Shown in pieces: positions 15,346-17,475 of a stretch of DNA of 64,000 nucleotides. The DNA comes from Pedobacter sp. AK013. Its GTDB lineage: Bacteria; Bacteroidota; Bacteroidia; Sphingobacteriales; Sphingobacteriaceae. The position numbers and the translations under genes are program-made. A model generated the notes under the pieces. The model saw only the letters and a list, made by a program, of their open reading frames with translations, searched no databases and was not told where the DNA came from. The stretch is from the NCBI RefSeq assembly GCF_014205835.1, contig NZ_JACHCQ010000013.1, positions 1-64,000 on the forward strand, in the 5' to 3' direction. Position 1 is the stretch's first letter, and the number at the start of each line of letters is the position of its first letter.

Positions 15346-16020
15346 CTATTCCAAAAGATCAGGGCGGCGTGTTTTAGTTCGTTCTAAGGCCTGTTCATGC
15401 CTCCATTCGTTCACTTTAGCCTCATGGCCGCTTAATAAAACATCGGGCACTTTATGTCCACGCCAGTCTGCCGGGCGGGTATAAACCGGTGCATCAAGCA
15501 GCTCTCCCTGAAAACTATCGGATAGGGCCGAAGTTTCATCATTTAAAACCCCCGGGATTAAACGCACAACAGCATCCACCACAATTGCAGCAGGCAGCTC
15601 GCCTCCACTCAAAACATAATCTCCAACCGATATTTCCCTCGTTACAAAGATATCCCGTATGCGCTGATCTATACCCTTGTAATGGCCGCATAAAATAATG
15701 ATATTCTTTTTAATAGAGAGTTCGTTAGCCGTGCTCTGGTTTAAAGTAACGCCATCGGGACTCATGAAAATAACTTCATCATATTCTCTCTCGGCTTGAA
15801 GTTTTTCGATACAGGTCGCAAAAGGCTCAATACTCATTACCATACCGCTACCACCACCATACTGGTAATCGTCTACACTTTTTTGTTTGTTGGTAGCATA
15901 ATCCCTCAGGTTATGCACAACAATTTCGGCAATGCCTTTTTTTTGCGCACGTTGCAAAATAGAATGGGCAAACGGACTTTCTAATAAGGCGGGCAAAACT
16001 GTTATAATATCGAAACGCAT
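15346..16020 (-). CDS. trmD: tRNA (guanine(37)-N1)-methyltransferase
   Basis: Methylates G37 next to the anticodon to prevent frameshifting. [25 protein letters not shown], the knot region [10 protein letters not shown] and [10 protein letters not shown] are all TrmD signatures. The 224-aa length fits. The start codon lies only 4 nt after a TACCTTTG promoter box, and a 7-bp-period array occupies the upstream region, so this gene probably has its own promoter inside the ribosomal cluster. Confidence 0.97.
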
Positions 16021-16024
16021 GGTG

Positions 16025-16032
16025 CAAAGGTA
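16025..16032 (-). promoter_or_regulatory. Candidate -7 box for trmD
   Basis: TACCTTTG on the minus strand fits TAnnTTTG. CACC separates it from the ATG at 16020, so the transcript would be leaderless or nearly so. Confidence 0.5.
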
Positions 16033-16066
16033 AGTCTTTAGTCTGAAGTCTTTAGCCTGAAGGCAA
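16032..16066. repeat. 7-bp-period array in the trmD promoter region
   Basis: Units AAGTCTT, TAGTCTG, AAGTCTT, TAGCCTG and AAGGCAA in strict phase, immediately upstream of the trmD -7 box. Confidence 0.75.
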
Positions 16067-16080
16067 ACTTTTGGGGGAGA

Positions 16081-16284
16081 TCACCAGTCTCCTTCTTCTA
16101 AATTGAATATTTCTTCTACCGGTTTATCAAAAACTTTGGCCATTTTTAACGCCAAAACCGTTGATGGAACATACTTGCCTGATTCGATGGTGTTAATGGT
16201 CTGCCGCGAAACCTGAATAAGATCTGCAAGTTCTGCCTGTGTAATGTTTTTTATGGCGCGTTGAACACGGATATTATTTTTCAT
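16081..16284 (-). CDS. XRE-family helix-turn-helix regulator
   Basis: 67-residue, single-domain DNA-binding protein of the Cro/CI type. The helix-turn-helix is QAELADLIQVSRQTINTIES (about residues 17-36). Its ATG overlaps the last 11 bp of the upstream membrane-protein gene, so the two are translationally linked. Small XRE regulators of this form commonly act on their own promoter. Three direct repeats in front of the pair (16724-16784) are the obvious candidate operator. It sits inside the rpsP-trmD cluster. Confidence 0.93.
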   Translation of the reverse strand: MKNNIRVQRAIKNITQAELADLIQVSRQTINTIESGKYVPSTVLALKMAKVFDKPVEEIFNLEEGDW

Positions 16285-16723
16285 CAGAAACCCCTTCTGT
16301 CCTTAAACGGTACAAACTAAAATTAAACTTTATAATGAAAACCAACAGCACAGTTAACATATTGTAAATCATAAAAGCCAAAAACATACCTCCGTAAATG
16401 GTCCACGTTGCAATAAATAAAACACCATAGGATATTAAAACCGACCATTGCCAGCTTTTTAACCGCAACAACGAAATATATTCGTCTTCGTTCTTTTCTT
16501 TCGAAAATGAAATTAATAAAAGTCCGATTATTACAAAACTCAAAATAATCTCATCCCACAAATTCCCATCCGACCAATTGAGTACCCTGGGTATTAACGT
16601 GAGCATAATTTTAGGAACTGGTAAATCGAAATAACTAATTACCCAGTAAGTACCTGAAGATAAAACAAAAACGATCCAACCAATTACTTTGAATTTGTTT
16701 GAGATCAAAAGCGAATTTTTCAT
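16274..16723 (-). CDS. Small membrane protein paired with an XRE regulator
   Basis: 149 residues with four likely membrane segments (about 12-30, 55-70, 91-108 and 112-132). I do not recognise a named family, but a small multi-pass protein followed by a compact XRE regulator is a recurrent gene pair in bacteria. It overlaps the regulator gene by 11 bp. A role as a partner or target of the regulator is inference from position. The pair separates rimM from trmD. Confidence 0.8.
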   Translation of the reverse strand: MKNSLLISNKFKVIGWIVFVLSSGTYWVISYFDLPVPKIMLTLIPRVLNWSDGNLWDEIILSFVIIGLLLISFSKEKNEDEYISLLRLKSWQWSVLISYGVLFIATWTIYGGMFLAFMIYNMLTVLLVFIIKFNFSLYRLRTEGVSDEK

Positions 16724-16784
16724 ATATCAAATATTTTTTACCAAATGTAAAGTATTTTTGATATTAATGTCAAGTATTTTTTAC
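16724..16784 (-). promoter_or_regulatory. Three direct repeats, candidate XRE operator
   Basis: Three near-identical units at 16724-16741, 16745-16761 and 16767-16784. On the plus strand they read ATATCAAATATTTTTTAC, ATGTAAAGTATTTTTGA and ATGTCAAGTATTTTTTAC. Start-to-start spacing is 21 and 22 bp, two helical turns, so all face the same side of the DNA. Confidence 0.65.
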
Positions 16785-16845
16785 TAAAAGATTGTTTTAT
16801 TTTACAAAAACAACCTGGATTAGACTAAAAATCAAGAAAATATTT

Positions 16846-17373
16846 TTAGCTTTCGAGATAAACATCCAGCAAACCTTCGGGTAAATCGAGGGTTAATGTT
16901 TTTTCATCCTCATCGTATTCTACAATAAAATCTTCGTTTAGCGGGAACAGGATTTCGGTTTCTTTATGCATCACGGTAGCCACAAATTGTTGCGGATATT
17001 CGTTTACTTCCAAAATTTCGCCTAATTCGCCCAAAGTTTCATCTATTGCTAAATAACCTTTAAAATCGGTATAGAAAAATTCTCCTTCTTCGCGTTCGGG
17101 CATTTGCGATAGGGGCAGGTATAATTTCTTTTTTAATAACGGTTGCACTTTATCGATGTGATCAGCATCATCAAAATTAAAGTAGCCCGTTTTATTGGCC
17201 TGTAGTTTTGCCGAGGCCACAAAATACGGAACAAGTTTACCATTCATATCGGCAAATACCACATCATATTCGAGTTGCTCGTATTCATCAAATTCGAAAA
17301 ATACCTGAACTTCTCCCTTTAAACCCCTCGTTTTGGTAACGTAACCTATATAAAATGCTTCTTCGTGTTTCAT
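16846..17373 (-). CDS. rimM: Ribosome maturation factor RimM
   Basis: Helps assemble the head of the 30S subunit, binding S19. The N-terminal RimM barrel (FYIGYVTKTRGLKGEVQV) and the C-terminal PRC-barrel-like half (ETLGELGEILEVNEYPQQFVA within it) are visible. The frame runs on to an ATG at 17406, but that codon lies in the GTCATCC end of a family A repeat, so the start is more likely 17373 (MKHEEAFYIGY) or 17379. That gives 175-177 aa, the usual size. A terminator and a repeat lie between it and rpsP. Confidence 0.95.
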   Translation of the reverse strand: MKHEEAFYIGYVTKTRGLKGEVQVFFEFDEYEQLEYDVVFADMNGKLVPYFVASAKLQANKTGYFNFDDADHIDKVQPLLKKKLYLPLSQMPEREEGEFFYTDFKGYLAIDETLGELGEILEVNEYPQQFVATVMHKETEILFPLNEDFIVEYDEDEKTLTLDLPEGLLDVYLES

Positions 17374-17401
17374 AATCATCCCTAAATGTGCCTTTAAAAG
17401 T

Positions 17402-17463
17402 GTCATCCTGAATTTATTTCAGGATCTATGATAAGAAAGATGCTGAAATAAATTCAGCATGAC
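17402..17463. repeat. Palindromic intergenic repeat, family A
   Basis: GTCATCCTGAATTTATTTCA at one end and AAATAAATTCAGCATGAC at the other; two hairpins of about 8-10 bp. It lies between rpsP and rimM. Confidence 0.85.
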
Positions 17464-17475
17464 GAACTGTAAATA

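Follow-up and report, generated by a model that had tools for sequence, protein, structure and literature searches.

Small regulators of the XRE family are often encoded beside membrane proteins of the DUF2178, DUF3796 or DUF6442 families. The closest described system is CylR1/CylR2 of Enterococcus faecalis. CylR2 is a repressor which binds a promoter, and induction depends on CylR1 in a way that is not understood (PMC3709268). Operators with several repeats have been described as well. For NanR of Escherichia coli, three dimers occupy a three-fold repeat operator (PMC8012715). In the literature searched, no paper on the operator presented here was found.

The locus considered here lies in Pedobacter sp. 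AK013. In the window, i.e., the whole stretch of 64,000 nucleotides that was analysed, a gene for a small membrane protein is followed by a gene for a small XRE protein, and an array of phased repeats lies in front of both (Table 1). The array is very probably a three-site operator, with one additional weak site, of the co-encoded CylR2-like XRE protein. Judging from the sequence, this protein would act as a cooperative autorepressor, and its membrane partner would relieve or tune the repression.

Table 1 Features of the membrane-protein/XRE locus, in the order of transcription with the promoter motif among the repeat units
Feature	Position	Strand	Remarks
rimM, upstream neighbour	16846..17406	-	named from sequence and gene order
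Unit O0 (fourth, half-degenerate)	16790..16805	-	GTAAAATAAAACAATC; 21 bp upstream of O1, in the same phase
Putative operator unit O1 (distal)	16769..16784	-	GTAAAAAATACTTGAC; holds the -33 TTG (16771-16773); conserved in relatives
Putative operator unit O2 (middle)	16747..16762	-	ATCAAAAATACTTTAC; 3' end enters the -7 box
Predicted Bacteroidota -7 box	16742..16749	-	TACATTTG (TAnnTTTG); 21 nt downstream of the O1 TTG (16771-16773)
Putative operator unit O3 (proximal)	16726..16741	-	GTAAAAAATATTTGAT; over the predicted transcription start
Membrane protein, 149 aa	16274..16723	-	four predicted helices; conserved short loop KEK-EDE
XRE protein, 67 aa, presumed repressor	16081..16284	-	CylR2 relative; gene overlaps the membrane-protein gene by 11 bp
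trmD, downstream neighbour	15346..16020	-	TACCTTTG four nt upstream of the ATG; name assigned from sequence and gene order

Repeat array and embedded promoter

The original prediction described three direct repeats with a phasing of 21-22 bp, and this description holds. The 18-mers occupy 16724-16741, 16745-16762 and 16767-16784, their starts lying 21 and 22 bp apart. In the reading direction of the genes (minus strand), they are, in order, GTAAAAAATACTTGACAT, ATCAAAAATACTTTACAT and GTAAAAAATATTTGATAT, spaced by 22 and then 21 bp. Pairwise comparison of the three gives 44 matches out of 54, whereas dinucleotide shuffles of the 122-bp intergenic region (n = 1000) reached a mean of 28.5 and a maximum of 37, and none of them attained the observed value. 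The placement given for the repeats stood only in part. With the genes on the minus strand, a unit about 40-60 bp before the start codon does exist, but it is the distal one (16767-16784), located 44-61 bp before the ATG at 16723, while the one at 16724 lies immediately next to the start codon of the membrane-protein gene.

All units are contained in the 122-bp gap between the membrane-protein gene and the end of rimM (16846). Each of them is an imperfect dyad of the form GTMAA-N6-TTKAC as well as a direct repeat; the units of the window deviate from this form, O2 starting with ATCAA and O3 ending with TTGAT. In many loci, the array model matches the same places on both strands, as expected of dyads. 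A comparison with Rfam returned no match to an RNA element. O0 retains only the left half of the dyad, and this half is kept in other loci of the Pedobacter group (most of L001-L012, L018). Neither O0 nor the embedded promoter nor the location within rpsP-rimM-trmD-rplS had been part of the original prediction.

The promoter pattern of the Bacteroidota primary sigma factor is found as TTG-N21-TACATTTG at 16773-16742 on the minus strand, in which we take the -33 TTG to be the upstream promoter element of Bacteroidota. The last bases of O2 and the letters that follow form the second motif, TACATTTG. In Bacteroidota, the -7 box TAnnTTTG of the primary sigma factor sits at -12 to -5 (PMC9723704). 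Transcription is predicted to start near 16737, inside O3, which would leave a leader of about 14 nt. O1, O2 and O3 cover the -33 box, the -7 box and the predicted start, respectively. This arrangement bears on the possibility that the XRE protein is mainly an activator or a two-way switch, with O0 and O1 aiding RNA polymerase and repression confined to the proximal units. Such a role is suggested by the reach of the units to about -69 and by the one conserved half-site that O0 keeps in Pedobacter, but it is very unlikely given the overlap of O1-O3 with the promoter motifs and the start, which is the usual location of a repressor.

Conservation and co-inheritance with the XRE gene

By its own account, the original prediction was open to refutation by a lack of the repeats upstream of orthologous pairs. 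Such pairs do have the array upstream of them across the Bacteroidota, and a weak one is present in one Neomarinimicrobiota contig. For this comparison, 80 loci with XRE relatives were fetched, and the region upstream of the membrane-protein gene was readable in 79 sequences, the window included. Upstream regions from 68 of the 79 were anchored on TTTACATTTG with up to two mismatches, which biases the anchor columns and leaves the flanking columns unbiased. Their consensus is GTAAAATATACTTGACATTATGTAAAATATACTTTACATTTGGTAAAAnAAAnTTGACA. The most conserved stretch of the footprint is TTTACATTTG, and TAnnTTTG is strongly conserved over the 68 loci, though these were anchored on that stretch.

An anchor-free search of the 79 loci identified 201 units (39 in shuffles) and 107 unit-to-unit gaps of 20-23 bp, for which shuffles gave 0.38 (maximum of 2 in 50 rounds); because the loci are related, these counts are not independent trials. 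Among the related loci, a gap of 21 bp was the most frequent (n = 82), followed by 22 bp (n = 19) and 20 bp (n = 6). The held-out loci L022, L026, L032, L039 and L058, which were outside the model, scored 45-59 bits. Moreover, the array stays with the pair where rimM/trmD are absent from the fetched surrounding DNA (L013, L020, L021, L040, L043). It is also kept, more weakly, in L144, where the membrane protein is a different one, and in L015, where it is decayed. In the latter locus, the translation indicates that the membrane-protein gene has apparently decayed, and the array and the XRE gene remain.

The further genomic sites and the regulon envisaged in the original prediction are not supported. 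When the genome of the strain (6.07 Mb) was scanned with R1, the sequence-only array model, the window array was the single site (55.6 bits, E 2.5e-14), and the next matches were its opposite strand (15.2 bits), then places at chance level. Single dyads, with 38 occurrences, are rarer in this genome than a control pattern with 77. The XRE gene has no close second copy, the only other match having 31% identity, and the membrane protein is encoded once. Together, the one array site, the lack of a close second XRE copy and the single-copy membrane protein point to a dedicated operator rather than a regulon.

Array and XRE gene are inherited together. In the family survey (61 genomes; thresholds of E <=1e-4 for arrays and E <=1e-15 for XRE), arrays were found in 11 genomes and the XRE gene in 14; all 11 were among the 14, with the two within about 1.6 kb. 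Expressed as a Fisher test, 11/14 XRE-bearing genomes had the array versus 0/47 XRE-less ones (p 9e-10). Of the 149 genomes of the class, 14 had arrays, 21 had the XRE gene and 14 had both, which corresponds to 14/21 versus 0/128 (p 7e-15); both p-values are optimistic because the genomes are related. Thus, in the sampled genomes, the array is present only with the XRE gene and adjoins it. No array above the threshold was detected in 7 of the 21 XRE-bearing genomes of the class. The three XRE-bearing genomes of the family below the threshold carry weaker arrays at the expected place, for instance G020 and G007. In G007, the weak array is still present with a different membrane protein as the partner.

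Two genomes differ in layout. G184 has two XREs and two arrays. In G176, the sole array follows the XRE gene and precedes a third gene, which encodes a small exported-looking protein (L155:1620-1700). This layout implies that the target of the array is not always the pair itself, and the XRE protein may control the third gene in G176.

The array could also be the site of another regulator, for instance one of rpsP-rimM-trmD-rplS, its proximity to the XRE gene being incidental. In many Sphingobacteriaceae, it does lie between rimM and trmD, and the interval from the XRE gene to trmD contains no terminator-like site, so read-through is possible. However, the array accompanies the XRE gene at other locations as well, and XRE-less genomes with rimM-trmD yielded no array, which makes this explanation highly improbable. 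The probability that the repeats reflect chance or the low-complexity surroundings of an A+T-rich promoter is practically negligible: A+T makes up about 84% of the region and the genome holds single dyads no more often than the control pattern, but the shuffles fall short of the similarity, and the phylum-wide conservation and phasing refute this explanation. The autoregulatory operator originally proposed is supported in its core by conservation, co-inheritance with the XRE gene and adjacency to it.

Position in the ribosomal-protein operon

The gene order is rpsP-rimM-membrane protein-XRE-trmD-rplS on one strand, and this operon-internal position is the unusual part of the system. Among Sphingobacteriaceae loci whose fetched DNA includes both neighbours, most have the pair between rimM and trmD. 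In other genomes of the family, rimM and trmD are directly adjacent and the pair is missing, including the same-genus loci L124 and L125 (TrmD 96-97% identical). G021 (L127:1236-1506) has a decayed XRE remnant between the two genes, and of the operator units only a fragment of one is left.

In 28 of the 34 loci inspected, trmD is immediately preceded by a conserved TAnnTTTG of its own, usually about four nt from the ATG, which weakens the case for its dependence on the promoter of the pair. In the window, TACCTTTG suggests a near-leaderless trmD promoter. It is unlikely that the pair links membrane state to the ribosome and tRNA-modification genes, with the repressor-covered promoter serving both as an adjustable road-block and as an internal promoter that sets the level of trmD-rplS relative to rpsP-rimM.

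Other repeats occur in this operon. A degenerate 7-bp tandem repeat (ACTTCAG/ACTAAAG) at 16021-16063 on the minus strand stands directly before trmD and is followed by TACCTTTG. The genome contains 16 occurrences of the pattern GACTNMAGACTNMAGACT, compared with 0 for a control, and a longer tandem run is located at G000:C16:128631-128690. In other Sphingobacteriaceae (L026, L034, L035, L053, L058, L059), the stretch before trmD consists of pyrimidine-rich, species-specific near-repeats of 7-8 bp. Between rpsP and rimM (17406-17465), a palindrome pair, GTCATCCTGAATTTATTTCAGGATCT / AGATGCTGAAATAAATTCAGCATGAC, resembles a small repetitive element.

The two proteins and the proposed mechanism

The closest relatives of the XRE protein are from Pedobacter, with 95% identity. 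A phmmer search against PDB chains matched residues 3-62 to 1utx, the CylR2 of Enterococcus faecalis (E 6e-14), and the protein also matched 9k3w, a PbsX-family regulator (E 1e-16). In 81 XREs, the segment VSRQTIN is invariant save for T/S at a single position, and many positions elsewhere in the protein vary. Such invariance amid variable positions fits a conserved half-site.

For the membrane protein, structure prediction gave four helices with a mean pLDDT of 86.9, and D80, E81, R87 and F133 are invariant. The protein of the window had no Pfam or NCBIfam match, and a PDB fold search gave no match with E <3. Weak Pfam matches to DUF2178, DUF3796 and DUF6442 were obtained within the family (best E 0.001-0.012, 1-7 of 52 members), none of them for the window protein. 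Because positive charges are located at the N-terminus and near the C-terminus, we infer that both termini and the EDE loop are cytoplasmic and could reach the XRE protein. Variants of the partner exist. In several genomes, it is about 295 aa long and combines two family domains in a single chain, and Mucilaginibacter and G036 have two membrane-protein genes in front of the XRE gene (loci behind these variants: L004, L006-L009, L011, L047, L058, L142, L145). A type II toxin-antitoxin module was also considered for the pair and rejected, as the XRE protein scored under the curated cut-offs of all antitoxin models and the partner lacks the matches mentioned above.

From the computed features, namely the array, its phasing and conservation, the overlap with promoter motifs, the co-inheritance with the XRE gene and the uniqueness in the genome, we infer binding, cooperativity and repression by the XRE protein, as well as a role and a signal for the membrane protein. 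As an autorepressor, the XRE protein would bind the GTMAA-N6-TTKAC dyads O1-O3 as neighbouring dimers, aligned on one face of the DNA and about two helical turns apart. The sequence evidence strongly supports this first step. In view of the phasing, adjoining dimers would probably cooperate. The bound protein would cover the -33 box, the -7 box and the start, exclude RNA polymerase and repress its own operon, and this feedback would hold both proteins at low levels. By analogy with CylR1, the membrane protein would most likely sense a condition of the membrane or envelope and then release or sequester the XRE protein.

Comparison with known systems

A multi-site operator of an XRE autorepressor is of a well-known kind, but the literature searched seems to contain no description of this family or of its operator code. 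The present analysis offers a concrete predicted code, GTMAA-N6-TTKAC with a 21-bp phase, fused to TAnnTTTG, for widespread membrane-protein/XRE pairs of Bacteroidota, a family apparently uncharacterised so far. The locus is also a system for asking to which signal a CylR1-like partner responds and why a switch of this type is retained in a core ribosomal operon by one lineage.

NanR is a member of the GntR family and functions in sugar metabolism. The protein family, the repeat and the spacing differ from those of the present array, and only the logic is alike.

The likeness to CylR1/CylR2 is closer. Both XRE proteins are small (66-67 aa), 60 of 67 residues can be aligned, and the recognition-helix segment VSRQTIN is near-identical. 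In both systems, the XRE gene adjoins a gene for a small multi-helix membrane protein, here with the overlap given in Table 1. The partners differ in the number of helices, CylR1 having three and the present protein four predicted ones. In contrast to the enterococcal system, no toxin operon is linked to the Pedobacter pair, whose neighbours on the same strand are rimM and trmD, and the putative operator consists of three to four phased dyads within the pair's own promoter. Since there is no divergent toxin operon of the kind that a CylR1/CylR2 pair controls in response to a peptide, the locus is not classed as a CylR1/CylR2 system; its XRE protein is regarded as a CylR2 relative that may work alike.
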